In this document: positions 4,243 to 35,484 of the stretch, one piece after another
Layout of the letters: every line of letters begins with the position of its first letter
How positions within the stretch are numbered: the first letter of the stretch is position 1
IMG/VR virus record: IMGVR_UViG_3300043427_003377
Span: 1 to 38,619 of that record
DNA length: 38,619 bases
From: a virus
Reading direction: 5' to 3' (one strand)
Position numbers and translations under genes: made by a program
The notes under the pieces: generated by a model
The model's database searches: none
What the model was told of the DNA's origin: nothing
What the model saw: the letters and a program-made list of their open reading frames with translations, nothing else

Positions 4243-4862
4243 CGCACGCCCTCCGCCCACTTCTTGATGCGCTCTCGCATGATGTAGGCTGCGGCAAGAA
4301 CCACGATGCCAGCGAACACAAGCGCCACAACCTGTGCCACACCATCGAGCGCTCCGACGGCCGCGACCCCAGCGCCAGCGCCTGACGCGATCTGTACGGC
4401 GGAAGCCCGTACAGTGGTCGATTGCGACGGATCAGTGCGCTCTGCCGGGGGCTTGGCCTTGCTTGTCCAGTCGCCCTCGGGATAGACCTTGCGGTCGAGC
4501 TCGAAGTGCGGGCCGTCTTTGAAGCTTGTCCAGTCGCCGCCCCAGTCTAGAGCCACTTCCTCCTTCTCTGCCGCCGCCTTCACGGCAGGGCCGAGCTTGT
4601 CGTAGAGCGGCCAGTCAAAGGCAGCCTTGCCATTCGGCCCGATGGGCACAAGGTCCACGGCATGGCCCGTCAGGTGGCGGCTGTTCATGGTCTTTGAGGC
4701 ACCGCTGGCAACGAGCTGCTTTTGCCGCTCCTTAGTGCGAAGCCCCTCAATGACGACAAAATCAAGCGGGCTGTCCAGCAGCGCGCGGTCGATGACCCGG
4801 CGGAGGTCAGGGTGGACGCCGTTCAGGTTCTTCAGGCTTCGTGCACTATACTTGCGGCTCAT
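4239..4862 (-). CDS. Endolysin, M15 peptidase with C-terminal membrane segment
   Basis: 207 aa. The M15 (VanY/L-Ala-D-Glu peptidase type) zinc motifs are clear: SRHLTGHAVD with His63 and Asp70, and GPHFEL with His119. It should cut peptide cross-links of peptidoglycan. After a linker of Pro/Ser/Thr residues comes a C-terminal hydrophobic helix at about 176-194 (VVALVFAGIVVLAAAYI) and a basic tail, unusual for soluble M15 endolysins. No separate holin is visible nearby, so the tail may anchor the enzyme or act in hole formation. The ATG at 4862 has GGGAG upstream; the open frame extends further but starts in the repeat-bearing intergenic region. Confidence 0.85.
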   Translation of the reverse strand: MSRKYSARSLKNLNGVHPDLRRVIDRALLDSPLDFVVIEGLRTKERQKQLVASGASKTMNSRHLTGHAVDLVPIGPNGKAAFDWPLYDKLGPAVKAAAEKEEVALDWGGDWTSFKDGPHFELDRKVYPEGDWTSKAKPPAERTDPSQSTTVRASAVQIASGAGAGVAAVGALDGVAQVVALVFAGIVVLAAAYIMRERIKKWAEGVR

Positions 4863-4904
4863 GGTCAGGGCTCCCTGCTTACCTTCGGGCGGAGCATACA
4901 TGAA

Positions 4905-4940
4905 CCAAGGCCCGAGGTCAAAGAGCCTTGTCCCCGAGGC
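4905..4940 (+). repeat. Heptamer repeats in a divergent intergenic region
   Basis: CCAAGGC, CCGAGGT, a degenerate CAAAGAG, and a further CCGAGGC at 4934-4940. This is the one clearly intergenic copy; it lies between the divergent endolysin and RHH genes and overlaps the spacer of the promoter at 4928-4956. Confidence 0.65.
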
Positions 4941-4956
4941 ACAGGAAGTGTATAAC
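4928..4956 (+). promoter_or_regulatory. Sigma70-like promoter for the RHH gene
   Basis: TTGTCC at 4928-4933, a 17-bp spacer, and TATAAC at 4951-4956, about 32 bp before the ATG at 4988. A TTGGAG ribosome site follows at 4972-4977. Confidence 0.6.
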
Positions 4957-4987
4957 CCAAACACAAGTCTGTTGGAGTTTACGAACA

Positions 4988-5188
4988 ATGGCCCACAAAG
5001 ATCAGGTCTTCAAGAACGTGGCCGTCCCTGCGGACGACCACCAGCTTTTGTCGATCATCGCGGAGCATGAAGATCGGTCGATGGCACGCCAGCTCGCCGT
5101 GATGATCCGCGAAAAGTACCACGCGATTCAATCGGCAGCGGGTAGTACGGTGGAGGGCACGGCTCCAGCTTCGGGAAAGAGATCATAA
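4988..5188 (+). CDS. Ribbon-helix-helix (Arc-like) DNA-binding protein
   Basis: 66 aa. The pattern VFKNVAVPADDHQLLSII (beta strand then helix A) followed by RSMARQLAVMIREKY (helix B) fits the MetJ/Arc ribbon-helix-helix fold, which binds DNA as a dimer. It is the only plus-strand gene between two minus-strand blocks and has its own promoter. It probably represses itself and the divergent lysis operon, or the adjacent helicase operon. Its 3' 134 bases overlap the end of a convergent minus-strand gene. The polar C-terminal tail is probably disordered. Confidence 0.75.
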   Translation: MAHKDQVFKNVAVPADDHQLLSIIAEHEDRSMARQLAVMIREKYHAIQSAAGSTVEGTAPASGKRS

Positions 5189-5402
5189 GGGTAGCCAAGC
5201 GCTCCTTGCACATCTCTTTGAGCATGATCTCGCAAAAGAAAACCTCGAGCCCACTGAAGTAGCTCATGTGGGCGAGAGCATCCTCCTTCGACAAGTCCCC
5301 GAACTTAAACTCGAGGACCGCCTTCATGAACTGCCACTGCGCCATGATGTCGTCGCCCGTGATGATGTCGAGCTCCTGCATCCGTGTCAGAGTTGCAGCC
5401 AT
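5055..5402 (-). CDS. Hypothetical protein downstream of the helicase
   Basis: 115 aa, starting 16 bases inside the 3' end of the helicase gene. Residues 1-75 form a plausible helical protein (MQELDIITGDDIMAQWQ..., SYFSGLEVFFCEIMLKEMC). The last 40 residues (Pro/Arg/Ser-rich) are antisense to the RHH gene and look like a non-selected read-through tail. No domain recognised. The coupled start supports it as real; the C-terminal end is doubtful. Confidence 0.5.
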   Translation of the reverse strand: MAATLTRMQELDIITGDDIMAQWQFMKAVLEFKFGDLSKEDALAHMSYFSGLEVFFCEIMLKEMCKERLATLMISFPKLEPCPPPYYPLPIESRGTFRGSSRRAGVPSTDLHAPR

Positions 5403-6841
5403 GTCCGAGCCTCCTCCCGCAATACCTTAGCGCCGATGTCGATCTTGTTCCGCAGCGCCGCCACGATCTTCTCGTCCACCGTCTTCTCCGTGATCAGATC
5501 GACGTATGTCACGGGGTTCTTCTGACCGATGCGGTGCGCTCGATCCTCTGACTGCAGCCGATGTTCGAGGTCAAAGCTGTTGGCATAGTAGACCACAAGG
5601 TTCGCCTCGGTCAGCGTCAGACCATAGCCTGCCGTCGAGGGGTTGCCCACAAAGAATCGCAGCGGGTGGCCCGGTATCTGGAAGTCACGGACGATGCGAT
5701 TGCGCTCCTCGTCAGAGGTGTCGCCGAAGTAGCTGGCGGCTACATCGTTTCCGTAGGCTTTGCGCAGCGCCTCGGTGATGCCGATGATGTCGTGCCGGAA
5801 GCGAGACCAGATGATGGCCTTGCCATCGTGCTCTTCCATGATCTCGAGGAGAGCCTCCATGCGATTCGACTTGAACGTCAACACCTCGCCGTCGTCTGTC
5901 TTGAGATGGCCAGACAGCACCTGTTGCAGGCGGAGGAGCTGGGTGATGACGACAGGAGTGGAGACAAGCTCTGTCCCGTTGACCAAGGTGAACGCTTCCT
6001 TCCTGATCTCCTCGTACATCTTGGCCTGCTCGTCCGTCATCGACACATAGCGGGCGGTGTACGTCTTCTCCGGCAGGTCGAGGCACTCCTTCTTCAGAAC
6101 GCGGTAGGCAAACTGGTCGATGCGGTACGACAGGTCCTCGAGGTTCTTGTAGCCCACGATCTGCTCAAAGCTGTGCACCCCCATCTTGCGCTTCTGCGTC
6201 ACGGCATAGCGCCCTTGAAACGCGTAGTAACTATCGCAGCCCAAGAGCCGAGGTCCGAGGAACTCGCATTGAGCATAGACATCCATGGGCGACTTGGTCA
6301 CAGGCGAGCCTGTCAGCAGGCGGCGGTAACGAAAGAGCGAGGCGATCTTGACGAGGGCCTTGGTCCTCTTGGCCTTGTGGTTCTTGATGGTGGTCGATTC
6401 GTCGATGCCGATCAGACCACGGTGCCCGAACTTCTTGCCCAGCCACTCGCCTGCCTGCTTGCCCTTGAGGGCGGAGAAGGCTTCGACGTTCATGACGAAG
6501 ATGGTCAGGCCACCGAAGGCCTTGCCGACCGACTTGATCTCGGCCTCTTGCTGCTTGTTGGCAGACGAGACCCAGCGAATCACCCGCTTCTCGATCTCGT
6601 CCGGCATGTGCTCCGGGATTTCTTTGGCAACCCAGTTGCGGTACACGCCCTTCGGCGCGATGATCAAGGCGAAGTCTATCTTCCCCTCGAGGTGCAGGTT
6701 CGAGATGGTATCGATCAGGACCTTCGACTTTCCTGTTCCCATCTCCATAAAGAAGCCATAGGATTCGCGGTCCATGGACCGCTCAAGCGCGGTCACTTGG
6801 TGGGCATATGGCGTCGTCTTAAAATTCAGCTTGACAGTCAT
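5387..6841 (-). CDS. SNF2-family (SF2) helicase
   Basis: 484 aa, starting at the ATG at 6841 behind GGAGG. Motif I GTGKS (35-39) follows an HQ that resembles a Q-motif; motif II is DEST (147-150); motif III LLTGSP (175-180). The C-terminal lobe has IIWSRF, GYGLTLTEA and the SNF2-type motif VI QSEDRAHRIGQ (430-440). An ATP-driven dsDNA translocase related to phage SNF2-like helicases. Likely roles are replication, recombination or clearing bound proteins. It is divergent from the replication operon. A heptamer repeat (6241-6261) encodes the FLGPRLLG segment. Confidence 0.9.
   Translation of the reverse strand: MTVKLNFKTTPYAHQVTALERSMDRESYGFFMEMGTGKSKVLIDTISNLHLEGKIDFALIIAPKGVYRNWVAKEIPEHMPDEIEKRVIRWVSSANKQQEAEIKSVGKAFGGLTIFVMNVEAFSALKGKQAGEWLGKKFGHRGLIGIDESTTIKNHKAKRTKALVKIASLFRYRRLLTGSPVTKSPMDVYAQCEFLGPRLLGCDSYYAFQGRYAVTQKRKMGVHSFEQIVGYKNLEDLSYRIDQFAYRVLKKECLDLPEKTYTARYVSMTDEQAKMYEEIRKEAFTLVNGTELVSTPVVITQLLRLQQVLSGHLKTDDGEVLTFKSNRMEALLEIMEEHDGKAIIWSRFRHDIIGITEALRKAYGNDVAASYFGDTSDEERNRIVRDFQIPGHPLRFFVGNPSTAGYGLTLTEANLVVYYANSFDLEHRLQSEDRAHRIGQKNPVTYVDLITEKTVDEKIVAALRNKIDIGAKVLREEARTWLQL
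6241..6261 (+). repeat. Heptamer repeat, 3 units, antisense to the gene
   Basis: CCAAGAG, CCGAGGT, CCGAGGA on the plus strand, within the minus-strand helicase gene. Confidence 0.7.
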
Positions 6842-23684: not shown

Positions 23685-24446
23685 TCAAACCTTCAGGGCG
23701 CTGCGCGTTTTTGTCATGTCAGCCCGTGTGTAGGGCTGGTAGTTCCGTCTCAACTGCGCGGGCATCGGCACCTCTTTGATCTCTGCCCCGGTCTCCGAAG
23801 CAACCTGCCGAGCCACGTCCATGAACGACGAGGTCGCTCCGGTTCCGACATTGTACACGCCTGAGCAGGATAGGTCAAAGAAACGCAGGTGGATATCGAT
23901 GACGGTTTCTACTGGGACAAAATCCCTACAAAAGTTCTCACTCCCCTCGAAGACCTCGATCACTCCTGAGGCGGCCTGCCTGCGGAAAAGGCTGTGTGGT
24001 GAGGGCTGATCCTTGTGGTCCTCGTGCGGACCGTAGACGTTGAAGTACCGAAAGAGCTGGACAGGGATCGTCCACGCATGACGCTCAACGTATTTCTCGA
24101 CAATAAACTTTGACAGGGCGTAGGGGTTTTGTGGGTTAGGCTTGTCCGTCTCGACGAAGGTTGAGGCCTTTGGTCCGTAAACGGCCGCCGAGGAAGCGAT
24201 CTGGATGGGGATGCCACGCTCATTGCAGGCCGCCAAGAGGCGCACAGAGGATATGACGTTCTGCTCAAGAAGCGCGTCCCAGTCCCGGCAGGCCGTACTG
24301 CTGATTGCGCCGAGGTGGATAACCCGCTCGATGCCGTCGAGGTTGGGTTCGCCGTAGCCCCACTCATGGCCAACGGCCCGAGGTCCGAGGGCCTTCATCA
24401 TATTCTGGCCGATGAAGCCGCGATGTCCGGTGATCAGAATAGCCAT
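23685..24446 (-). CDS. NAD-dependent sugar epimerase, HldD-like
   Basis: 253 aa from the ATG at 24446. Extended-SDR features: GHRGFIG (7-13) for NAD(P) binding, SSAAVYG, and the catalytic YALSK (Tyr109, Lys113). RYFNVYGPHEDHKDQ and FVPVETVIDIHLRF resemble ADP-L-glycero-D-manno-heptose 6-epimerase (HldD/RfaD) more than UDP-glucose epimerases. At 253 aa it is shorter than HldD (about 310). It would epimerise a nucleotide-activated heptose or hexose. It overlaps the HAD gene by 13 bases, at the 3' end of the sugar cassette. Confidence 0.8.
   Translation of the reverse strand: MAILITGHRGFIGQNMMKALGPRAVGHEWGYGEPNLDGIERVIHLGAISSTACRDWDALLEQNVISSVRLLAACNERGIPIQIASSAAVYGPKASTFVETDKPNPQNPYALSKFIVEKYVERHAWTIPVQLFRYFNVYGPHEDHKDQPSPHSLFRRQAASGVIEVFEGSENFCRDFVPVETVIDIHLRFFDLSCSGVYNVGTGATSSFMDVARQVASETGAEIKEVPMPAQLRRNYQPYTRADMTKTRSALKV
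24378..24391 (+). repeat. Heptamer repeat, 2 units, antisense to the gene
   Basis: CCGAGGT, CCGAGGG within the epimerase gene, encoding the ALGPRAVG segment after the first beta-alpha unit. Confidence 0.6.
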
Positions 24447-24715
24447 TGAGCTTTGTCGTCCACCCATATGTCGTAGGAAGGCTTTCCCATCCAAAGGTGG
24501 TGGTACTTACAGCCCCACTGGTCCAGTTGCCTTTTCGTCAGCTCTGACCAGTCGGTGCCAGACGACATGCCCCGGGCTGTCCAGTAGACGATCTCGCACC
24601 CCTGATCATAGAGCGCGTTGATCTTGGCGATCCGGTCGGCATACGGCTGGGCTTCTGGGTAGGAGCTTGCTGTCTGGGTACAGATTGTACCGTCGATGTC
24701 AACGACGTACCTCAA
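24434..24715 (-). CDS. HAD-superfamily phosphatase, small
   Basis: 93 aa from a TTG at 24715 that overlaps the upstream TGA. The nucleophile motif is DIDGT (6-10); IVYWTARG gives motif II; a lysine in GKPSYD and a DD in WVDDKA complete a minimal HAD without cap domain. Close to short HAD enzymes found beside nucleotidyltransferases in capsule and phage sugar clusters. It may remove the phosphate at C7 or C1 of a sugar bisphosphate, filling the GmhB step; the substrate is inference. An upstream extension of the frame is antisense noise. Confidence 0.75.
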   Translation of the reverse strand: MRYVVDIDGTICTQTASSYPEAQPYADRIAKINALYDQGCEIVYWTARGMSSGTDWSELTKRQLDQWGCKYHHLWMGKPSYDIWVDDKAQWLF

Positions 24716-25125
24716 CGAGAAACCCGGCTCCGCTGCAAGGTGGAAGACAGGTCGTGGCGGCGGCGGTTGTAGTGTATCAGCACACCAAGTCTCGCGCACA
24801 GCTCTTTGCCCGTGAAGTCCTTGCCTTCGTACTCTTCGCCGATAATGCGGACCGTTGGGCAAAGGAGCGCAATCAGCCGCTCAAGTTCTGCCTCGGTCTG
24901 ATACGGAATGATGCGGCCCACATGTCGTACCGCACTGAGCTGGATGTACCGCTCGGAAAGAGGCTGGAGAGGCTTTGACTTCTCCGGCCGCTCAAGGCTT
25001 GGATCGACGTGCAGCGCGCAGACAAGCACGTCACACAGGGACGCGGCCTCTTCGAGCATGGCGATATGCCCCGCGTGCAACATGTCAAAGGCGGACGCCG
25101 TGAAGCCGACAAGTTTCATGTTCAT
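24712..25125 (-). CDS. Nucleotidyltransferase (cytidylyltransferase-like)
   Basis: 137 aa. The GFTASAFDMLHAGHIAML start (residues 7-24) holds the HxGH signature of the TagD/RfaE2 fold. CALHVDPSLERPEKSKPLQ, SERYIQLSAV, IIGEEYEGKDFTGKEL and the YNRRRHDLSST ending match phage and marine bacterial adenylyl/cytidylyltransferases. It would join CTP or ATP to a sugar or polyol phosphate. Starts with an ATGA overlap with the kinase stop. It is distinct from the second transferase at 26025, so two activated substrates may be made. Confidence 0.82.
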   Translation of the reverse strand: MNMKLVGFTASAFDMLHAGHIAMLEEAASLCDVLVCALHVDPSLERPEKSKPLQPLSERYIQLSAVRHVGRIIPYQTEAELERLIALLCPTVRIIGEEYEGKDFTGKELCARLGVLIHYNRRRHDLSSTLQRSRVSR

Positions 25126-25835
25126 TTCACCGCGTAGACGCCCGGGCGGCTACAGGCCATGGCGGCGTAGTAGTTTGCGGCGTTGAGCGCCCCGGCCATG
25201 TCCTTGTACTCCGTGCGGTGGTAGGCCAGCGCGGCCAAGAAAGTGTCTCCCGCCCCGCACACATCGACCACGTCGATCTTTGGGGCGGGATAGTTCTCGC
25301 CCTTGTACCAGCATCCGCCCGCCCCGCAGGTCACGACCAGATCGTCAGGCTCGCTCTTGAGCTTGCCGTGCTCAAGGCTGTTGATCTTGTAGGTGGGACC
25401 AGACAGAGGTTTCAGGTCCGTCTTTTTGGTGTCCACGAACATCGGACCGTTGTACCGCTGGATCAGGCCGTAAAGGTTGTCTTGCGTGATGAAGCCCTTG
25501 TCGTAGTCCGACACCACAATAGCGTCGAACTTGGCATAGAACTCAGGAATAGCCAGTTGGTAAGGCCTGCTCCGAACGTCTTGGTCAACCCGCAAGAGCT
25601 GGGTCACGCCATCCTCGCCGTAGAACCGCATCTTCTTTGAATACGGTTCGTCAGGGAAGTGGCTCACCACATCGCAAAAGGCGCGGAGGTTCTCGGCCAC
25701 ATTGGCCGCCATGCCAAGAGAGCGGCGCGTCCCCGTCTGCCGCAGGAGCGTGGCCCCCGCTTCTGGGTTCTTCCGCTCCGTCGTGCCGTGGACGTAGATG
25801 TCTTCGCAGACGTCGCCTATGACAAGAACCATCAT
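25122..25835 (-). CDS. HldE-N-like heptose-phosphate kinase (PfkB family)
   Basis: 237 aa. Ribokinase fold with GMAANVAENL (41-50), VSDYDKGF (108-115) and the GAGDTF anion hole (194-199, catalytic Asp197). These match the kinase half of HldE, which phosphorylates D-glycero-D-manno-heptose 7-phosphate at C1. It is somewhat shorter than that domain (about 310 aa). In E. coli kinase and nucleotidyltransferase are fused; here they are separate genes with a cupin gene between. ATGA coupled to the cupin gene; the open frame upstream is not used. Confidence 0.82.
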   Translation of the reverse strand: MMVLVIGDVCEDIYVHGTTERKNPEAGATLLRQTGTRRSLGMAANVAENLRAFCDVVSHFPDEPYSKKMRFYGEDGVTQLLRVDQDVRSRPYQLAIPEFYAKFDAIVVSDYDKGFITQDNLYGLIQRYNGPMFVDTKKTDLKPLSGPTYKINSLEHGKLKSEPDDLVVTCGAGGCWYKGENYPAPKIDVVDVCGAGDTFLAALAYHRTEYKDMAGALNAANYYAAMACSRPGVYAVK

Positions 25836-26179
25836 GTCTGGCTGTCTCCCGACAGGACGCGGTAGTTGTCGGCGGCCGTGTCCCGGCTCGAGACTTCGAT
25901 GATGACGCCCGGGCCAGAGATGCAGTGCAACTGGTGGGGCAGGAGCGGGCGGTTGCGCCACGTGTCTTGGGGATAGAGCCTACGCGAGGAGTACGTGGCC
26001 GTCGCCGTATCGATGGTCGTCAGCTCAAAGACGCCCTGCAGGACGTACCACGTTTCGTCCTTGTCTACATGGAAGTGCATCGAGAACTTCTTGTCCTGCT
26101 CGAAGCACAGAAATTTCCCACAGTAGGTCTCCGTCGAGGCAAAGATTTCCTCGTGCCCCCAGCCCTTCTCCACGCGCAT
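25832..26179 (-). CDS. Cupin, mannose-6-phosphate isomerase type II-like
   Basis: 115 aa. GWGHEEIF, FSMHFHVDKDETWYVLQGV and GPGVIIEVSS form a single cupin barrel with the HxH...E metal ligands (about His35/His37/Glu41). Small cupins of this kind sit beside sugar nucleotidyltransferases. It could isomerise or epimerise a sugar phosphate. The gene overlaps the 3' end of the upstream nucleotidyltransferase by 148 bases in another frame. Confidence 0.78.
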   Translation of the reverse strand: MRVEKGWGHEEIFASTETYCGKFLCFEQDKKFSMHFHVDKDETWYVLQGVFELTTIDTATATYSSRRLYPQDTWRNRPLLPHQLHCISGPGVIIEVSSRDTAADNYRVLSGDSQT

Positions 26180-26552
26180 GTTCGATAATCCTTGTTGTCG
26201 ACTTGTTGACAGTATAGGGGATTATCACAACCTTTGCCAAGTCTCTTCCGACAACATCTTCTTCGGCATAGTCGCCGCCCTTGGTGATGATGTCGGGCTG
26301 GAGATTGCGGATCAGCTCGTAGGGCGTGTCCTCGTCAAAGATCACAACCTCGTCCACGCAGGCCAGCGCCCGCAGGATTTCGGCTCGGTCTTCTTGGGAG
26401 TTGATCGGTCGGTCAGCGCCCTTGAGGCGGCGCACGGAGGCGTCAGAGTTTATGCCGACGATCAACTTCGAGCCAAGGGCGCGTGACGCCTGCAGGTATC
26501 GGATGTGGCCAACGTGCAGGATGTCAAAGCAGCCGTTGGTAAAGACTAGCAT
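26025..26552 (-). CDS. HldE-C-like ADP-heptose synthase (nucleotidyltransferase)
   Basis: 175 aa. FTNGCFDILHVGHIRYL (4-20) carries the HxGH signature; LIVGINSDASVRRLKG, INSQEDRAEILRALACVD, DEDTPYELI, ITKGGDY and STTRII are near-diagnostic of the RfaE2/HldE C-terminal domain, which makes ADP-heptose from heptose 1-phosphate and ATP. Homology ends near residue 130. The last 45 residues run out of frame over the cupin gene and look like read-through of a lost stop. Start overlaps the methyltransferase stop by seven bases. Confidence 0.88.
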   Translation of the reverse strand: MLVFTNGCFDILHVGHIRYLQASRALGSKLIVGINSDASVRRLKGADRPINSQEDRAEILRALACVDEVVIFDEDTPYELIRNLQPDIITKGGDYAEEDVVGRDLAKVVIIPYTVNKSTTRIIEHARGEGLGARGNLCLDGDLLWEISVLRAGQEVLDALPCRQGRNVVRPAGRL

Positions 26553-27118
26553 GTGCGCTGCACCACGACCTGATAGCCCGTCGGCGATTCGAGAACCTTC
26601 AGGCGGTTCCAGTTGCAGGCGATGAAGGCATCGACCGCCTGCTTCGGGCTGTCGTGGATGCTCTCGCCGTATCGCCAGCTCACCGCGTCATCAAAGACCA
26701 TGACGCCGCCGATGTTCAAGAGTTCGAAGCCCAGAGCCGCATCAAGCAGCACGTCCTTGGCGAAGTGTGAGCCATCGACGTAGATCAGGTCTGCTTTCAC
26801 GCCGCGCTGGCGCAGCGCGATGAGGCCGTCGAGCGACGTCATGTCGATATGCTCAACCTCGGGAAACTGCGGCAGGATGCTGGTGAATGTCTCGCGGGCC
26901 GAGGCCACAGTGCCGTCGGTCAGGTTCTCCGACTGCAGGAACGGGTCGATGGCGTAGTGCTTGTAGGCTCCCGAGCCTCGGAGCATGGCCGTGAGGTTGA
27001 ATGTCGTCTCGCCCTCGAAACAGCCGATCTCAATGACCGTGTTCGGGACGAGGACTTCGTTAAAGATGCGGGAGAGCGTGGTCTTGATGTGGTCGTGGAA
27101 GACGACGGAGAAGCTCAC
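26546..27118 (-). CDS. Class I SAM-dependent methyltransferase
   Basis: 190 aa. VIEIGCFEGETTFNL (28-42) is SAM-binding motif I; YAIDPF, IDMTSLDG and DLIYVDGSHFAKDVLLD follow, with GGVMVFDDA, typical of Methyltransf_24-type sugar or small-molecule methyltransferases. It may methylate the sugar made by neighbouring genes, but the acceptor is unknown. Overlaps both neighbours slightly. Confidence 0.85.
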   Translation of the reverse strand: MSFSVVFHDHIKTTLSRIFNEVLVPNTVIEIGCFEGETTFNLTAMLRGSGAYKHYAIDPFLQSENLTDGTVASARETFTSILPQFPEVEHIDMTSLDGLIALRQRGVKADLIYVDGSHFAKDVLLDAALGFELLNIGGVMVFDDAVSWRYGESIHDSPKQAVDAFIACNWNRLKVLESPTGYQVVVQRTC

Positions 27119-27807
27119 GTTTCAAGCCTATCGTTGCGGACGGTGCTGCGGCCCTCTTTCGGTCTGCCGAGGATCGTCGTTTCAGCGTCCTTCACGTCGT
27201 AGGCGTAGAGGCCCATCTGGTGCATCGGGAAGAGGTCAGCCCGAAGCAGAATATCCAGAGGCCCGCTGATGCCGTAACGCAGGACGTGGGCCAGCATATT
27301 CTTCGCCACAGCCGGGTCAATGGCGTAGGCGTGCGCCCGGCAGATAAAGTGGTAGTTCGGCCCCTCGCTGGCGTGCGGAGGCGTGGGCAGAACCTGCCAG
27401 CCTTGGTTGGCCTGCTCGTTGCTGCCCAGATAGCAGATCGAATTGAAGAGCGCGTGCTGCGTGTAGGGCTGAACCATGACCGCGTCATGCTCAAGGATGA
27501 CCAGCGGCTTGTCGTCGAGAACACACTTCTCCCACAGGCTGATGTGGCTGAGAGCGCAGGCCACCTCGCCTCGGGTCATGTAGTGGTCGGTCACCTTGAC
27601 CATGGCCGGGATGCCGCCGTGCGTTGCCGGAGGCTGAATGGGGTTCTGGATGCCGTCGTAGGCGTCCCAGTACATCCACGGCATGCCAGCCAGTTCGCAG
27701 CTCTCGGCGGCTCTCTTTGCCTTTACCTCGGATGGCTCGTGGCCTTTGACGCGGATGATGTGCGCTGCCGACACGCCGAGGTCATAGCTGAAGTTCAAAG
27801 AGCGCAA
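27115..27807 (-). CDS. Glycosyltransferase family 25 (LPS-type)
   Basis: 230 aa. GT25 signatures: AHIIRVKGHEPS at the N-terminus, the GEVACALSHISLW segment (80-92) and the LVILEHDAV donor/metal motif (102-110), then HAYAIDPAVAKNML. This family includes LPS galactosyltransferases (LOB1-like) and collagen-type protein glycosyltransferases. The acceptor here may be host LPS or a virion protein. ATGA coupled to the methyltransferase. Lies immediately downstream of an RCC1 fibre gene. Confidence 0.85.
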   Translation of the reverse strand: MRSLNFSYDLGVSAAHIIRVKGHEPSEVKAKRAAESCELAGMPWMYWDAYDGIQNPIQPPATHGGIPAMVKVTDHYMTRGEVACALSHISLWEKCVLDDKPLVILEHDAVMVQPYTQHALFNSICYLGSNEQANQGWQVLPTPPHASEGPNYHFICRAHAYAIDPAVAKNMLAHVLRYGISGPLDILLRADLFPMHQMGLYAYDVKDAETTILGRPKEGRSTVRNDRLET

Positions 27808-27810
27808 AGG

Positions 27811-29034
27811 TTATCCTTTGGTGATGGCGACAGTTTGTTTGCCTGCAGATGTCATTGACCAACTTGTTAGGGAGCCGACCTGAATAGGACTGGACTTGCT
27901 AACAACAGTATTATCACCGAGCCTGCCATCAATGTTGCTGCCCCATGTCCACAAGGTTCCATCTGTTTTCACAGATGTAGTGAAACTTGTCCCTGCTGCA
28001 ACTTGCGACCAGTTCGTCAAAGCTCCAATTTGAACAGGGCTGGAACGGGAAATAGTATTGTTCTGACCTAGCTGCCCTGAAGCATTGACGCCCCAAGCCC
28101 ATACGGTTCCGTCGGTTTTAATTGAAATAACATGTTCATCACCCGCAGAAACCTGAGACCAGTTTGTCAGAGAACCGATTTGAACGGGGCTGGAGCGGTT
28201 GATGACAGTGCCGTCGCCAAGTTGGCCCGCGTTGTTCCGCCCCCAAGACCAAAGAGTTCCGTCAGTTTTTACAGCAGCTGCATTGTTTGAAATGGCTGCA
28301 GAAACCTGAGACCAGTTTGTCAGAGAACCGATTTGAACGGGGCTAGAGCGGTTGATGACCGTGTTGTCTCCAACTTGGCCTTGAGCATTGCCACCCCACG
28401 CCCATAATGTCCCGTTGGTTTTAACCGCCGACGTTATGCCGCCTCCTGCGGAGACTTGACGCCAATCTGTTAAAGATCCAATTTGAACGGGGCTAGAGCG
28501 ACCAGCGGTAGTGTTGTCTCCAACAGTACCGCTACTATTGCTTCCCCAAGCCCACAAAGTGCCATTTGTTTTTATTGATGCGGTAACGCTATTCCCAATA
28601 GACACGCTATACCAGTCTGTTAACGCGCCGACTTGAACAGGGCTAGAACTAGAGATCACATTACCTTGACCTAGTAAGCCATTTGAGCCGAAACCCCAAA
28701 CCCATAATGTCCCATCAGCTTTTACAGACGCGGAGTTGCTGTTCGCCGCAGACACTTGCGCCCAGTTTGTTAAAGCCCCGATTTGAACAGGGCTGGAACG
28801 GTTGATGACGGTGCCGTCGCCAAGCTGGCCTTGTCCATTGTAGCCCCAAGCATACAACTCCCGAGGCGACACCGGCTTCGGCCACCCGTCAACCTTCTCG
28901 TATGTCAAGACATCCGCCAGCGTCCAGACGCCAGACGCGCTACCACCTTCCCCGGCGAGCGGGCCAGACGTCGCTGGCCCCGTCACCGTCGGGGGTGTCT
29001 TTCGGATAAGGCCGCCGGGGTAGCGTTCTGACAT
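27811..29034 (-). CDS. RCC1-repeat tail protein 1 (seven repeats)
   Basis: 407 aa. A 55-residue N-terminal segment (SERYPGGLIRKTPPTVTGP, then VWTLADVL) resembles tail-protein attachment regions. Seven RCC1 repeats of about 50 aa follow, each with GTLWxWG, GQLGDGT, RSSPVQIG and LTNW, enough for one closed seven-bladed propeller. As the proteins lie among tail genes, a receptor-binding role is likely. DNA is more AT-rich than neighbours (about 48% GC in a sampled line at 28621, against about 62% at 30001). Paralogous to two more genes at 31203 and 32347. Confidence 0.8.
   Translation of the reverse strand: MSERYPGGLIRKTPPTVTGPATSGPLAGEGGSASGVWTLADVLTYEKVDGWPKPVSPRELYAWGYNGQGQLGDGTVINRSSPVQIGALTNWAQVSAANSNSASVKADGTLWVWGFGSNGLLGQGNVISSSSPVQVGALTDWYSVSIGNSVTASIKTNGTLWAWGSNSSGTVGDNTTAGRSSPVQIGSLTDWRQVSAGGGITSAVKTNGTLWAWGGNAQGQVGDNTVINRSSPVQIGSLTNWSQVSAAISNNAAAVKTDGTLWSWGRNNAGQLGDGTVINRSSPVQIGSLTNWSQVSAGDEHVISIKTDGTVWAWGVNASGQLGQNNTISRSSPVQIGALTNWSQVAAGTSFTTSVKTDGTLWTWGSNIDGRLGDNTVVSKSSPIQVGSLTSWSMTSAGKQTVAITKG
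28145..28344 (-). repeat. Direct DNA repeat inside RCC1 gene 1
   Basis: 47 identical bases at 28145-28191 and 28298-28344, 153 bp apart, which is exactly 51 codons. It is the most exact of many near-copies across the three RCC1 genes. Confidence 0.8.
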
Positions 29035-29036
29035 CT

Positions 29037-29468
29037 TTACAGACCCAAGGCGTCCAGATCGTCATGCGTAGCGGCGGCGGTGATGGCCACGATGTTCGCA
29101 TCGCGCGTTGCCTTCGCCGCAGCCACAACCTCGGCGTCGTAGAAGTCGTCCGGGTTGTCGTTCACTTCCCGAGCCGCCTCGGCGTTCACGACCGCCGTGT
29201 AGGCAGCCTTCTGAGCCGAGATGAGCAGCTCCTGCCGCTCCTCAACGCTCACCGAGCGCGAACCCCAGACGATCTGCGCAGGCTCAACGTCGATGTCGAA
29301 GTGGTGGGTCGTGTAGATTTCGCGGCCCGGAACGATGTCAGGATGAACCTCGACCGCCGCACGCCAACCCGGCTCGACGGCCAGCTTGTCATCCGACGGC
29401 TTGTAGTCCCAAACGTCCGTGACTTGGCCGTTCTTGACGCGAATCCAGAAGCCCGTTTTCGTAGGCAT
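29037..29468 (-). CDS. Small tail-associated protein (possible fibre chaperone)
   Basis: 143 aa with a strong AAAGGAG site. Beta N-terminal half (FWIRVKNGQVTDVWD, IYTTHHFDIDVEP) and an Ala-rich helical C-terminal half. Small proteins beside fibre genes often act as assembly chaperones or caps, but no family is certain. Its 5' 80 bases lie under the out-of-frame end of the sulfotransferase fusion. Confidence 0.55.
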   Translation of the reverse strand: MPTKTGFWIRVKNGQVTDVWDYKPSDDKLAVEPGWRAAVEVHPDIVPGREIYTTHHFDIDVEPAQIVWGSRSVSVEERQELLISAQKAAYTAVVNAEAAREVNDNPDDFYDAEVVAAAKATRDANIVAITAAATHDDLDALGL

Positions 29469-31203
29469 GCTGAAGCTCCTTTTTCAATTCCCCAAAGACT
29501 GTCGTCCAGTCCCCATGTCCAGTTTGACGGAACAGACGCACGCTGTCATACCACTCCGTCTTCGAACCCGGCTTTGCCCAAAGATAATACGGCAAGACAG
29601 GTATAACAATCCATGTTGGAACGCCCATGGCTCCAGCCAAATGCGCCACCGATGTGCACGACGTTATCACAAGATCGCAGGATGCAACAGCCTCCGCTGT
29701 GTCAGCCCACGAAGAAAGGTTCATCTCGCGAACCCACGCGGGCCGATGCTCAGCGCCAAGGTCACGCTGCAGGCTGACGTACTCGACATCCAGCCCCTTC
29801 ACCGCGTTGAAGAGATACTGCGGCGGGAACAGGCGGTGCTGCTCATGCTCAAACTGCGGGTTGCCCTGCCAGCGCAGGCCGATGCGCAGCTTGCGGCCAC
29901 GCTCAACCTCGGGCCGCTTCATGTAGGCCGACCCGTCGATGTCCTTGTACTGCCAGTCAAGCGGCAGGCTGGCGGTCATGCTGGGCACCCAGAAGTCATG
30001 CACAACGCCAAAGGCAGCCTCGTGCTGAATGACCATGTCCACGCCCTCGACCTGCCGCATGGCCAGCGCCAGCGGCCCGGAGCAGGCCACGATCACCTGA
30101 TTGCCGAGCTTCTTCAGTTCGCGGGCGAACCGTGCGCCGTGAATCTGGTCGCCGAGGCCAGCCTCCAAATTGAGGAGAGCCGTGCCCACCTGCTTGCCGT
30201 CCCAGATCGGCGTCGGCACGCTGGGCTTCTCGTTGCCGAAGACCTTCTCAATCCTGCCGCGCTCCAAGAGCATCATGCCGTCTTTTAGGTGCCCCTTGCG
30301 CAAGACGTACCAGCCACGGTTAAAGGCGGCGCGGTGGTTCTTCGGCTCCTTGATGGCCAGCTCGTTGGCGATCTTCTCGCCCTCGGCGAAGTTGCCCATG
30401 ACCCCGGCGGCAAGCTGCATGTCCAAGGGGTGGATCGGCTTGTTCGACGTCTTCTCGCCACGCCAGAAGCGGGGCTGCACGAACTGGTCGTGCATGTGCT
30501 CCAGCACATCCTCGGAGTTGTCATCGTGCCGCTTGGCGAGCTTCGGTGCCACCGTGTGCAGGCCCGGCACCTGCCAGATTTCCTCGTCACGCTCCTTGGG
30601 TGCCGTCTCGTCCAGATGGTTCAGATCGTAGTCAAAGTCCGACAGGCCCAAGAACTTGTGGATGCGATCCAACTGCGCTTTCGGATCGGCGACCAAGTCT
30701 TCGTACTCGACAAAGAGGAAGCAATCAGGGTCTGCCGTGTAGCCAGACAGAAGCACCTGATAGGACTTCTTCAGGTGGTCGATCAGGTCGCTGTTGCGGA
30801 GGAAGTCTTCCAGATCGTTGGGCCGCGCAACCCGGACGAAGGATGCGGCGCAGTCCTCGACGTTGCGGACGGTGGCGATGATCTTGGGCTTGCGGCCCAG
30901 AAGATCGTTGAGCACGGCCACCGACGATGCCTCGGCCCAATTCCGCGCCTTGTCGATCACGATGGGCTTCTGGATGTGGGCGTACTTCGCCTCCATGATC
31001 CCGCGCAGGACGCGCTTGATCTGCTCGCCGTCGGGGGCTGCCTGCTCGGCCATGCTCCCCTGCCACGCCTTGAACGTGTTGAACATCACCTCGCCCATGC
31101 CGCTGGTGGGGCTGGCGTGGATGTCTGGGTGCTGGTTCAACAGGGCGGACAGAACCGTGCTGCCGGAGCGGGGTAGGCCAGCGAGGAAGTGGATTTGGGG
31201 CAT
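29389..31203 (-). CDS. Sulfotransferase-TPR-GT9 fusion
   Basis: 604 aa from the ATG at 31203 (TAATG overlap). Residues 1-240: sulfotransferase with the PAPS loop FLAGLPRSGSTVLSAL (6-21), ATVRNVEDCAASF (110-122) and VEYEDLVADP. Residues 263-318: a TPR-like helical pair. Residues 335-590: a GT9/heptosyltransferase-like domain with LNLEAGLGDQIHGARFA (345-360), RIGLRWQGNPQFEHE and DLVITSCTSVAHLAGAMG. It could add both a sulfate and a heptose or related sugar. TPR-GT9 proteins include protein glycosyltransferases. It lies between two RCC1 fibre genes, and its 3' end overlaps the next gene by 80 bases. Confidence 0.85.
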   Translation of the reverse strand: MPQIHFLAGLPRSGSTVLSALLNQHPDIHASPTSGMGEVMFNTFKAWQGSMAEQAAPDGEQIKRVLRGIMEAKYAHIQKPIVIDKARNWAEASSVAVLNDLLGRKPKIIATVRNVEDCAASFVRVARPNDLEDFLRNSDLIDHLKKSYQVLLSGYTADPDCFLFVEYEDLVADPKAQLDRIHKFLGLSDFDYDLNHLDETAPKERDEEIWQVPGLHTVAPKLAKRHDDNSEDVLEHMHDQFVQPRFWRGEKTSNKPIHPLDMQLAAGVMGNFAEGEKIANELAIKEPKNHRAAFNRGWYVLRKGHLKDGMMLLERGRIEKVFGNEKPSVPTPIWDGKQVGTALLNLEAGLGDQIHGARFARELKKLGNQVIVACSGPLALAMRQVEGVDMVIQHEAAFGVVHDFWVPSMTASLPLDWQYKDIDGSAYMKRPEVERGRKLRIGLRWQGNPQFEHEQHRLFPPQYLFNAVKGLDVEYVSLQRDLGAEHRPAWVREMNLSSWADTAEAVASCDLVITSCTSVAHLAGAMGVPTWIVIPVLPYYLWAKPGSKTEWYDSVRLFRQTGHGDWTTVFGELKKELQHAYENGLLDSRQERPSHGRLGLQAVG

Positions 31204-32345
31204 TAGTTGGATGAACCTTGGAAGATGGCTACGGTAAACTCGCCGCCCGCCGCAACCTGATACCAATTGGTAAGAGAGCCAATTTGCACCGGGCTAGATT
31301 TGTTAACGGCAGTGCCGTCGCCGAGTTTGCCAGAAAAGTTGCTGCCCCAAGTCCAAAGAGTGCCGTCGATCTTGACGGCAGCGGTGGAATCGTTAAATGC
31401 CGAAACTTGCGACCAGTTAGTCAAAACTCCAACTTGAATAGGACTGGAGCGGTAAACTGTTGTGCCGCTGCCAAGCTGGCCGCTGCCGTTATTACCCCAA
31501 GTCCATATGGTGCCATCGGTTTTGATAGACGCAGTAACTCGGTAACCAACCGAAACTTGCGACCAGTTTGTGAGCGCGCCAATTTGAACAGGGCTGGATC
31601 GACTGATGACTGTGCCATCTCCAATTTGGCCGTTTATGTTGTAGCCCCAAGTCCACATCGTGCCATCAGTTTTTATGGCTGCGGTAAAATTGCCGCCCGC
31701 TGAAACCTGATACCAGTTAGTTAAAGCCCCAATCTGAACAGGGCTGGACTTGTTGACAACCGTGTTGTCGCCGAGTTGGCCTCGGTTGTTTCGGCCCCAA
31801 GTCCAAAGGGTACCGTCGGCCTTAATAGAGGCAGTGTGAAACCAGCCTGCCTCAACCTGATACCAATTGGTAAGAGGGCCAACTTGAACAGGGCTTGATT
31901 TGTTAACGGCAGTGCCGTCGCCGAGGTTGCCGAAGCTGTTGTTACCCCAAGTCCAAAGAGTGCCGTCAGTTTTGACAGAAGCGGTGAAGTTACGACCCGC
32001 AGAAACTTGCAACCAGTTTGTAAGTGCGCCAAATTGAACAGGGCTGGATCGACTGATGACTGTGCCATCTCCAATTTGGCCGTTGCTGTTGTAGCCCCAA
32101 GTCCAAAGAGTACCGTCGGTTTTTACTGCCGCTGTAAAGCTGTCTCCCGCCGCAACCTGCGCCCAATTGCTAAGCGCGCCCACTTGGACAGGGCTTGATC
32201 TGGAAATGGTGTCGTTCTGGCCAAGCTGCCCCTGAGCATTCTGCCCCCACGACCACAACTCCGGCAGCGGCAACCCCGTCCACGTCCCGGCGGCCACGGC
32301 CTGCAGCTGCTCGGTCAAACCCCATTTCCCGGAGAAATTCGGCAT
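31203..32345 (-). CDS. RCC1-repeat tail protein 2 (seven repeats)
   Basis: 380 aa. A 30-residue leader (MPNFSGKWGLTEQLQAVAAG) precedes seven RCC1 repeats with the same RSSPVQ[IV]G and LTNW[SY]QV blocks as the other two proteins. The C-terminus is FQGSSN. The leader differs from the other copies, so the propeller module has been joined to different virion-binding ends. Likely a receptor-binding or capping tail subunit. Confidence 0.8.
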   Translation of the reverse strand: MPNFSGKWGLTEQLQAVAAGTWTGLPLPELWSWGQNAQGQLGQNDTISRSSPVQVGALSNWAQVAAGDSFTAAVKTDGTLWTWGYNSNGQIGDGTVISRSSPVQFGALTNWLQVSAGRNFTASVKTDGTLWTWGNNSFGNLGDGTAVNKSSPVQVGPLTNWYQVEAGWFHTASIKADGTLWTWGRNNRGQLGDNTVVNKSSPVQIGALTNWYQVSAGGNFTAAIKTDGTMWTWGYNINGQIGDGTVISRSSPVQIGALTNWSQVSVGYRVTASIKTDGTIWTWGNNGSGQLGSGTTVYRSSPIQVGVLTNWSQVSAFNDSTAAVKIDGTLWTWGSNFSGKLGDGTAVNKSSPVQIGSLTNWYQVAAGGEFTVAIFQGSSN

Positions 32346-32346
32346 T

Positions 32347-33738
32347 TTACACTACTCCGTAGAGGGCGAGGGTGTGGGCTTGCCCGGTGGACACTTGATA
32401 CCAGTTAGTAAGTGCACCAATTTGGACGGGGCTTGAACGATAGTTGCTCGTTCCATCTCCCAGTCTTCCACTCGAGCCATACCCCCAAGCCCACATGGTC
32501 CCGTCGGTTTTTGTAGCAACAGTGAAGCCAGCGCCCGAGGAAACGCTAAGCCAATTTGTAAGCGAACCGCTTTGAACGGGGCTCTGCTGGTTGACCTGAG
32601 TGCCGTTCCCAAACTGACCCCCAGAATTTTTACCCCAAGCCCAAAGAGAACCGTCCGTTTTTATAGAAATACAAAAGTTTGATCCGGCGGAAATTTTAGA
32701 CCAGTTTGTCAACGCGCCAACCTGAACGGGGCTCGAGCGGGGTAGGGTGTTGCCTTGACCAAGTTGCCCCTCATTATTGTACCCCCATGCCCATAATGTT
32801 CCGTCGGTTTTGACTGCTGCGCAAAACTCTCCTCCAGAAAAAACCGTAGCCCAGTTGGTTAAACTTCCAACCTGTACAGGACTCCTACGAGCAGTGCGAG
32901 TCCCGTCACCGAGTTGCCCCCTTGTGTTAATACCCCACGCCCACAGTGTTTTGTCCGTCTTTACGGAAGTAAAAAATTCGCTCCCCTTGCTTCCAGAAAC
33001 CAGATACCAATCTGTCAAGGCTCCGATTTGGACGGGACTTGATTTGTCAACTGTTGTTCCATCACCTAGCGCGGTATACGAACCCCACGTCCAAAGTGTG
33101 CCGTTTGTTTTTATTGCAGCGCCGTTAGGGCCTCCAGCGGACACTTGATACCAGTTAGTAAGTGCACCAACTTGAACGGGGCTTGAACGGTATACTGGGC
33201 TTGAACCAATGCCAAGTCTACCCTGTCCGCCGGCCCCCCATACCCACAAAGTTCCGTCAGACTTTACGGCTTGGCTATGTGTTTGGCCTCCCGATACGTT
33301 TGCCCAAGTTATAAGAGAACCAACCTGTGTCGGGGACGATCTTGGATTTAAGTCAAGGATTCCAAGCTCTCGGCTGCTGTTCTGGCCCCAACCCCACAAG
33401 CTCGCCCCAGCATAAATCTCGTTCCCCGTGTCATACTGCGACACCCGCCCCGGCCCATAGATGTTGGTCGCCGCAGCTCGGATTTTGAACGTGCCGCCAG
33501 CCGGAGGAGACACCGTGATCGGAGACGCAGAACCGACGGCTCCGGTCGAGGCTCCGGTGCTCTCGTCCACGGCGGTGATCGTGTAAGACGTAATGGCGCC
33601 GCCGCCCACGTCTGCAGGGGCGGTGAACGCGACAGAGGCGCTGCCGATGCTTGTCGTCACCGACGTGATCGTCGGCGCGTTGGGGGCTTTCAGAATGTCG
33701 AAACCGCCACTGACGTAGCCGCCTTTTGACGTGGCCAT
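32347..33738 (-). CDS. FN3 plus RCC1-repeat tail protein 3 (seven repeats)
   Basis: 463 aa. Residues about 17-105 form a fibronectin type III domain (PNAPTITSVTTSIGSASVAF, ITSYTITAVDESTG, FKIRAAATNIYGPG). Seven RCC1 repeats follow; these are the most diverged of the three paralogues. FN3 domains are common on phage surface proteins as carbohydrate- or cell-contact modules. Expected at the tail tip or fibre. Confidence 0.82.
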   Translation of the reverse strand: MATSKGGYVSGGFDILKAPNAPTITSVTTSIGSASVAFTAPADVGGGAITSYTITAVDESTGASTGAVGSASPITVSPPAGGTFKIRAAATNIYGPGRVSQYDTGNEIYAGASLWGWGQNSSRELGILDLNPRSSPTQVGSLITWANVSGGQTHSQAVKSDGTLWVWGAGGQGRLGIGSSPVYRSSPVQVGALTNWYQVSAGGPNGAAIKTNGTLWTWGSYTALGDGTTVDKSSPVQIGALTDWYLVSGSKGSEFFTSVKTDKTLWAWGINTRGQLGDGTRTARRSPVQVGSLTNWATVFSGGEFCAAVKTDGTLWAWGYNNEGQLGQGNTLPRSSPVQVGALTNWSKISAGSNFCISIKTDGSLWAWGKNSGGQFGNGTQVNQQSPVQSGSLTNWLSVSSGAGFTVATKTDGTMWAWGYGSSGRLGDGTSNYRSSPVQIGALTNWYQVSTGQAHTLALYGVV

Positions 33739-34134: not shown

Positions 34135-34860
34135 TTAGCCGAACACGATGGCCATGGCGATGGCCTTGCCTGTTGAAATGCCAGCAGACGGCGTCGAAAA
34201 AGCAAGGGTCCCAGCACCGTCCGTGCTGATAACCTGCCCACTCGTGCCGTCGGTCGTGGGCAGGGTGAAGGTGTTGACGAACGACTGCAGGTTTGCGTCG
34301 TAGGCCAAGACGTTGGTGCCGATCACGAGACCAAGGTTCGTGCGCGCATCAGCTTGGTTCGAAGCGCCAGTACCACCGTCGGCCACAGCCAGATCGGTGA
34401 TGCCAGTAATTGAGCCGCCAGTGATGTTGACGCTCGACATGGCGAAGTCGGCCGTGAGGTCTACAACCGCGGCCCCCGCTCCAGCGCCGTCGCAGTACAC
34501 AACCTTAGTGTCGCCATTAGCTACAGTGACGTTGCCGCCCGAGCCTTGCGTCAGAACCACGCTCTGTCCCGAGGAGTTCTTGACGATGTACAGGTGCTGC
34601 GCATCGTTGGGTGCGACCGTGACCGTGTTGGTTCCGCTCGGTGAACCCGAGAACACCAGCACCGCGTACTGACCGTCCGAGAGCGTCCCGTCCGAAGTCG
34701 TCAGGGTGTGGGTCGTGCCCGAAAGGGTGATCGTCCCGACGCCGTTGACCAAGCGGTCGATGATCGACAGGTTGGTGTTGGTCGTCGTGCCCCAAGTACC
34801 GGACTGTTCTCCGGTCGTGATGAGCTCGATACCGCTGTTCGTTGTGTACGTGCTGGCCAT
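34135..34860 (-). CDS. Tail-fibre-like protein
   Basis: 241 aa. Ser/Thr/Gly-rich beta protein with VADGGTGASNQADARTNLGL, the common phage fibre motif, and an ISTGKAIAMAIVFG ending known from cyanophage-type fibres. The N-terminal 100 residues may attach to the tail. Likely a short fibre or its base. Confidence 0.72.
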   Translation of the reverse strand: MASTYTTNSGIELITTGEQSGTWGTTTNTNLSIIDRLVNGVGTITLSGTTHTLTTSDGTLSDGQYAVLVFSGSPSGTNTVTVAPNDAQHLYIVKNSSGQSVVLTQGSGGNVTVANGDTKVVYCDGAGAGAAVVDLTADFAMSSVNITGGSITGITDLAVADGGTGASNQADARTNLGLVIGTNVLAYDANLQSFVNTFTLPTTDGTSGQVISTDGAGTLAFSTPSAGISTGKAIAMAIVFG

Positions 34861-34869
34861 GTCGTTCCC

Positions 34870-35484
34870 TTACGCCGCGATCTCGGTCCAGATTGTACCA
34901 GAGTCCGGGTTGATCTGAGTATACCCATTTCCGGGGTTCGGAACAATACGCCCCCACACCTTAACCTGCCCAACCGCTCCGGTCGCCGAAACGCCAGACA
35001 CGGTAACACGGGCGTCCCCGTTGACGCCAGCAGTTCCTACTGCCCCCGTAGCCGAGACGCCAGTGACGATGACCCGGGCTTTGGCGGAGACGTCGGCCGT
35101 TCCAACCGCTCCAGTCGCTTCAACGCCAGTGACGTTGACAGAGACCGACTCCTGAACGCCCGCCGTGCCGACCTGACCCACGCCCTCGACGCCCGTGACG
35201 TCGACGAGGACGCCAGAGCCTTCGGTGACCGTGACGCTGCCAACCTGACCAGTGCCAAAGACGCCTGTGACGACAACGGAGGCATCCGCCTCTACGGTCG
35301 CCGTCCCGACTTCCCCGGTCCCCGCTACGCCCGTGACGTTGACGAGGATGTTCTGGGTCGTCGTGACCGTGACGCTACCGACTTCGCCCGTGGCAAAGCC
35401 GACAGCAACGCTGCCTTCGCCCCAAGCGAGTTCGCCGAACCCCGCTCGGCCCCAGCCGGTGAAGGGGACGACGACATCGGTCAT
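34870..35484 (-). CDS. Virion protein with internal VTGV..TG.VG repeats
   Basis: 204 aa. About six copies of a 23-26 aa unit (VTGV-x-GTGEVGTATV, VTGVEATGAVGTADV and so on) lie between an N-terminal FTGWGRAGFGELAWGEG and a C-terminal WGRIVPNPGNGYTQINP...WTEIAA. The ending matches virion proteins of marine phages. The repeats suggest a beta-solenoid or fibre shaft. Structural role inferred. Confidence 0.68.
   Translation of the reverse strand: MTDVVVPFTGWGRAGFGELAWGEGSVAVGFATGEVGSVTVTTTQNILVNVTGVAGTGEVGTATVEADASVVVTGVFGTGQVGSVTVTEGSGVLVDVTGVEGVGQVGTAGVQESVSVNVTGVEATGAVGTADVSAKARVIVTGVSATGAVGTAGVNGDARVTVSGVSATGAVGQVKVWGRIVPNPGNGYTQINPDSGTIWTEIAA

Follow-up and report, generated by a model that had tools for sequence, protein, structure and literature searches.

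A phage-borne sulfotransferase–TPR-like–GT9-fold fusion protein and its genomic linkage to RCC1 propellers

The fusion gene and its neighbours

The window analysed here is a whole IMG/VR virus record of 38,619 nucleotides, and its features relevant to this work are listed in Table 1. The gene of interest has its ATG at 31203 and its stop at 29389–29391, with no internal stops. Its start overlaps the stop of the upstream RCC1 gene by 1 nt, while its 3′ end overlaps the gene for the 143-residue protein by 80 bases. These overlaps with both neighbours place the frame in a compact operon of late genes in a tailed phage, and structural genes flank it on either side.

Table 1. Features of the fusion locus within the window, with the evidence for each
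Feature	Position	Strand	Evidence
Second RCC1 protein, 463 aa	32347..33738	-	Pfam RCC1 2.4e-62
RCC1 beta-propeller protein, 380 aa, directly upstream; proposed substrate	31203..32345	-	Pfam RCC1 5.9e-86; synteny
Sulfotransferase / TPR-like / GT9-fold fusion protein, 604 aa	29389..31203	-	Pfam, AlphaFold2 model, homologues, conservation, GT tree
PAPS sulfotransferase domain, residues 1-250	30454..31203	-	Sulfotransfer_3 1e-20; TPST fold Z 19; conservation 32/32
Helical TPR-like linker, residues 258-320	30244..30432	-	AlphaFold2 helices; TPR_16 E 0.11; TPRs in homologues
GT9-fold (GT-B) domain, residues 340-585	29449..30186	-	WaaC/WaaF Z 16.5; TibC Z 15; hhalign
143-aa protein, DUF4376 / tail-assembly-chaperone-like	29037..29468	-	AlphaFold2; weak BFVD matches; synteny
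Third RCC1 protein, 407 aa; proposed substrate	27811..29034	-	Pfam RCC1 3e-72
GT25-like glycosyltransferase, cassette-conserved	27115..27807	-	Pfam 2.4e-13; synteny
Class I methyltransferase (Methyltransf_24)	26546..27118	-	Pfam 5.6e-14
HldE-C-like heptose-1-P adenylyltransferase	26175..26552	-	TIGR02199 179.1 bits, cut-off 181.5
Small cupin protein	25832..26179	-	
HldE-N-like PfkB kinase, shortened	25122..25835	-	TIGR02198 E 5e-28, below cut-off
Second HldE-C-like nucleotidyltransferase	24712..25125	-	TIGR02199 E 8e-20
HAD-type phosphatase-like protein	24434..24718	-	phrog_1238 1e-28; TIGR01689 3e-5
HldD-like NAD-dependent epimerase	23685..24446	-	TIGR02197 E 1.5e-57, 195 bits, cut-off 274.6

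The initial annotation had read this frame as one 604-residue protein joining a sulfotransferase, a TPR and a GT9-like domain in that order. The open frame, the Pfam matches, the folds predicted by AlphaFold2 and about 90 in-frame copies all bear this out. A sequencing error joining two genes, which had been named as a possible objection, is excluded by these roughly 90 further viral copies on other contigs. The fusion itself is thus confirmed as real, a single chain.

The 143-residue protein is predicted with high confidence by AlphaFold2 (pLDDT 95.8). It has weak BFVD matches to DUF4376 and to proteins annotated as ‘tail assembly chaperone’; a PDB fold search gave no Z above 6.3 and was uninformative. 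This gene and the GT25 gene usually accompany the fusion downstream. Two other fibre-like genes, at 34135–34860 and 34870–35484, are found close by, and many loci have kept them. An APS-kinase-like gene that follows GT25 in two other loci (L037 and L047) was considered as a source of PAPS and rejected, being far below the apsK cut-off; NCBIfam identifies it as a weak kinase plus a nucleotidyltransferase.

Predicted domain structure

The structure prediction suggested in the initial annotation was carried out with AlphaFold2, using a 33-sequence alignment, and gave a model of the 604-residue protein with pLDDT 87, in which residues 1–255 adopt a TPST-like fold and residues 340–585 a GT9 fold. 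For the sulfotransferase half, Pfam matches Sulfotransfer_3 to residues 6–188 (E = 1e-20) and also matches Sulfotransfer_1; the scores for PF13469 and PF00685 (75.5 and 54.1 bits) are above the curated cut-offs of 27 and 22, respectively. Comparison of the model with known structures using VIA-align places residues 1–255 closest to TPST-1/2, with Z of 18.5–19.1 over 232–239 residues, followed by CurM-type enzymes (Z 16), heparan 3-O-sulfotransferases (14) and SULTs (approximately 11–13).

The sulfotransferase motifs comprise a PRSGST loop at 11–16, K85, which is equivalent to Lys158 of TPST, R113, S121 and R124. The residues of the 5′-PSB loop and of the 3′-phosphate site are present (R12, S13, G14, T16, R113, S121 and R124), and these together with K85 are identical in all 32 of the domain-bearing sequences. 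The PAPS-binding residues of TPST-1/2 are kept. In TPST2 the catalytic glutamate is E99 and the substrate arginine is R101; in the alignment these become T33 and G35. Membership of the TPST family is consequently rejected despite the matching overall fold, and here the phage enzyme is in addition fused to a glycosyltransferase (GT). As judged from sequence, the loss of these two TPST2 residues and the replacement of WaaC D261 described below limit the functional naming of the protein.

The linker contains four predicted helices at 259–317. For the window protein the TPR signal is weak, but it is clear in longer homologues (E = 5e-14 in the second copy of L145; E = 6e-9 in L108). Because the TPRs of the longer homologues are unmistakable, and one of them passes the PF01075 cut-off, we regard the family as TPR-GT9 by descent, the window protein apparently retaining a reduced TPR.

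Residues 340–585 superimpose on WaaC (Z 16.6) and WaaF (Z 16.4) with an rmsd of about 3 Å over 228–235 residues, and on TibC with Z 15, again using VIA-align on the predicted model. The window protein misses the Pfam cut-off for GT9 (PF01075; 10.6 bits vs 22), and its assignment to GT9 is made from fold and motifs; a distant homologue, L146, exceeds the cut-off with 24.9 bits. The motifs are GLGDQxH, containing D352; RIGLRWQGNPxFEHEQHR; and SCTSVAH, containing C516 and H521. D352 lies in the LGD motif and is equated with WaaC D13 by motif and order; it is found in 32 of 33 sequences. H521 is kept in all 33, and R444 is near-invariant. The conservation of these and of the PAPS residues also answers the second objection named in the initial annotation, that PAPS and GT9 residues might be missing from an alignment. 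WaaC SVDTGLSH is placed on SCTSVAH by hhalign, such that the donor-site residue D261 of WaaC corresponds to C516; this cysteine is present in 33/33 sequences and is also invariant in the bacterial relatives. On the predicted model, the domain belongs to GT9 by fold, but not by profile score or D261.

The initial annotation had pointed to the autotransporter heptosyltransferases as a parallel. TibC and AAH require a four-cysteine iron finger (PMC4358343). No such finger was found in the fusion protein, whose GT domain has cysteines only at 374, 509 and 516 and no CxxC. Nor was an N-terminal β-barrel of the TibC/AAH type found, the GT being preceded by the helical linker and the sulfotransferase domain. 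Without iron-finger cysteines and without an autotransporter, membership of this family (TibC/AAH, BAHT) is rejected. The two share a GT9-like fold and an aspartate at the catalytic-base position, and TibC/AAH modify a surface adhesin, which resembles the modification proposed below; they differ in the iron finger, the β-barrel, the autotransporter and the fusion to a sulfotransferase (PMC4358343).

A second likeness is to FlmG of Caulobacter, which we compare by its published description only, and which combines a TPR-like region with a C-terminal GT-B domain (PMC7591256). FlmG modifies an exported surface protein in the cytoplasm, as we propose may also happen here, and its TPR domain binds the substrate; in contrast to the fusion, FlmG as described has no sulfotransferase (PMC7591256). 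The substrate here would instead be RCC1 propellers, the TPR region of the window protein is reduced, and none of the annotated genes around the fusion was recognised as a nonulosonate gene.

Occurrence of the fusion and its linkage to RCC1 genes

An architecture search, also proposed at the outset, returned about 90 viral copies of the fusion, whose carriers are a group of aquatic phages. Two viral scans found 34 and 80 loci, most of them with a full-length open frame and with identities of 38–93%. The only fusion in a scan of bacterial genomes (L092) is on a 10-kb contig and sits among phage genes, and the fusion therefore looks viral. In a tree of the GT domain the fusion forms a single clade (support 100/96), which is sister to an RCC1-linked bacterial GT. 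Two entries within this clade look GT-only because the contig is truncated (L024) or the copy frameshifted (L084). In the latter (4728–6545) the frameshift is local, affecting approximately residues 157–240, and is probably an assembly or sequencing error; an alternative genetic code was rejected, given the local frameshift, an ambiguous base and the occurrence of both kinds of stop, TGA and TAA. Pairwise dN/dS is 0.16–0.26 in each catalytic half, and purifying selection acts on both. We also note a divergent fusion (L090, 3905–5656) that lacks the RIGLRWQGN motif and carries D352N while its sulfotransferase residues are kept, and which on its sequence is possibly a natural single-activity version.

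An RCC1-repeat gene is present in the locus of 90 of the 93 fusion copies (a few contigs being counted twice). The gap between fusion and RCC1 genes has a median of 0 bp and exceeds 350 bp in a single case. Phages seldom carry RCC1, which occurs in 39 of 50,697 phage records. In the reverse search, with RCC1 as the bait, the fusion or GT/sulfotransferase genes turned up on 23 of 26 new viral contigs; of the three exceptions two break off at the RCC1 gene, where the contig ends, and one (L128) is genuine. This two-way genomic linkage of the fusion gene and RCC1 genes is our main new result. It does not extend to the related stand-alone phage sulfotransferases of S-SKS1 and AG-345-O18, which have no RCC1 nearby, nor to the RCC1 proteins of PollyC, SeaP3 and Clostridioides, Brevibacillus and Marinobacter phages, which have no such enzymes nearby. 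The parts are of known kinds; a search of open-access papers on RCC1 with sulfotransferases or glycosyltransferases in phages found nothing relevant, and neither the fusion nor its association with RCC1 was found in them. One paper on a jumbo phage suggested that phage RCC1 proteins perhaps order DNA (PMC7247149).

In the Pseudomonas phages PollyC and SeaP3, RCC1 propellers are carried on T7-like fibres (L155, 6585–9188; L156, 6588–9185). The RCC1 region is the C-terminal part of a protein in the tail-fibre position, behind a T7-fibre-like N-domain (E = 7e-5, just under the cut-off). RCC1 as a fibre tip therefore has a precedent, and by analogy the RCC1 proteins of the window phage are likely to be fibre tips.

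The GT-linked RCC1 genes, including those of the window (27811–33738), show NW and [ST][ST]P[VI] motifs repeated blade by blade. Phage and bacterial RCC1 proteins that are GT-negative or unlinked mostly lack both, a comparison biased by the fact that the RCC1 query itself carries the motif. We regard these motifs as a lead, which may point to the acceptor sites.

The same elements occur unfused. Separate GT and sulfotransferase genes together with RCC1 genes are found in AG-345-E08 and in five further loci (L108, L118, L120, L122 and L127). The cultured cyanophage S-SRM01 has the order long tail fibre, RCC1, DUF4376, RCC1, TPR-GT and, further on, RCC1 and sulfotransferase. RCC1 lies beside the GT in both BUCT-ZZ01 and AG-345-E08. 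A second kind of fusion of the same GT is also seen, in which the RCC1-adjacent TPR-GT of BUCT-ZZ01, L048 and L125 has a C-terminal extension of about 200 residues (L094, 7857–9572; L048, 5513–7231; L125, 11272–12981). The extension is methyltransferase-like in L125 and weakly so in BUCT-ZZ01 / L094.

A close GT was found in 6 of 192 Bdellovibrionota genomes, there without a sulfotransferase. In four of the six the GT gene lies next to genes for large RCC1 proteins that bear a signal of the twin-arginine type (SRRxFL, identified by eye), as in L143, L144, L145 and L093. Of the 192, the five whose RCC1 matches are strongest all belong to the six GT-positive genomes (hypergeometric p = 3e-9, ignoring kinship), including G149 and G129, which show no RCC1 next to the GT. 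These pairs are possibly a bacterial system for modification of surface proteins. The Tat pathway exports folded proteins, with which modification of RCC1 in the cytoplasm would fit.

Proposed role of the fusion protein

Genes downstream of the fusion (23685–26552) form an hld-like cluster that appears to provide most steps of ADP-heptose synthesis in a phage; gmhA was searched for in the window and was not found. The HldE/HldD-like genes make ADP-heptose a plausible donor and the leading candidate, an assignment from gene content that we hold tentatively. Such genes are present in roughly half of those loci whose flanking sequence is long, and many loci with 10 kb of downstream sequence have none; alternative sugar genes occur elsewhere, such as UDP-galactopyranose mutase in L055. 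These gaps and the replacement of D261 by cysteine count against ADP-heptose, the sugar donor that the initial annotation had named for enzyme assays, and its use is conjectural.

We propose that the fusion protein is probably a cytoplasmic viral enzyme with two protein-modifying activities, and that its substrates are the neighbouring RCC1 propellers, as probable tips of tail fibres or adhesins. The GT9-fold half, guided through the TPR-like linker, would use a nucleotide sugar to glycosylate sites that recur along the blades of the propeller; the donor is perhaps ADP-heptose, made in part by the HldE/HldD-like enzymes of the phage. The TPST-like half would move sulfate from PAPS onto that glycan or onto the propeller protein itself. 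Both additions would precede fibre assembly, and the downstream GT25 and methyltransferase may elaborate the glycan. The initial annotation had considered a fibre-modifying sulfo-glycosyltransferase conceivable. The two-way linkage to RCC1, the neighbour resembling a fibre chaperone and the presence of RCC1 on T7-type fibres of other phages support this idea, more firmly than could be seen from the sequence alone; the activities themselves we infer.

The enzyme might instead modify the host surface (LPS or capsule) with ADP-heptose and PAPS, and so exclude superinfecting phages or mask receptors, RCC1 being only a co-resident of a receptor module. GT9 enzymes are classically LPS heptosyltransferases, the genes downstream include GT25, an LPS-type family, as well as the HldE/HldD-like genes, and phage sulfotransferases without RCC1 exist. 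We nevertheless consider this unlikely: the gene is in a late structural cluster and overlaps RCC1 and chaperone-like genes, the GT is tied to RCC1 in bacterial chromosomes also, GT and sulfotransferase each follow an RCC1 gene in the split cassettes, and inspection of the enzyme by eye showed neither a membrane segment nor an export signal.

It is less probable still that either the sulfotransferase or the GT half has lost catalysis and acts only to target the protein, leaving sulfation alone or glycosylation alone. In favour of this are the replacement of WaaC D261 by C516, the missing TPST glutamate and the sequence of L090, in which the GT half has lost its RIGLRWQGN motif and D352 while the sulfotransferase half is kept. 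Against it, D352, R444, H521 and the full set of PAPS residues hardly vary across the family, and the two halves have similarly low dN/dS. The acceptor could also be another virion protein, either a different fibre or the 143-residue protein, with RCC1 as a scaffold or adaptor; the genes for these candidates are close by and conserved in many loci, but only RCC1 stays beside the GT across phages, split cassettes and Bdellovibrionota, and we judge this the most doubtful of the alternatives.

Modification of RCC1 propellers by the fusion protein may be compared with the capsid glycosylation suggested for mycobacteriophages such as Maravista, where phage transferases are likewise thought to decorate their own virion (PMC11256854). 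The enzymes and targets there are different and no sulfation is mentioned, whereas the target proposed here is the RCC1 fibre tip. In its fullest form, which we put forward with some reserve, our proposal is that a single-chain viral enzyme adds to every blade of the RCC1 tail fibre a modification that is sulfated and probably contains heptose, within a wider system of RCC1 glycosylation in phages and Bdellovibrionota that is absent from the papers searched. The enzyme and its proposed substrate form a pair that is directly testable, including the split version in the cultured cyanophage S-SRM01. If the proposal is correct, one phage enzyme would both sulfate and glycosylate the receptor-binding proteins of its own virus, with a bearing on host range, fibre masking and the ecology of aquatic phages, and it would offer an initial hypothesis for what RCC1 proteins do in phages.
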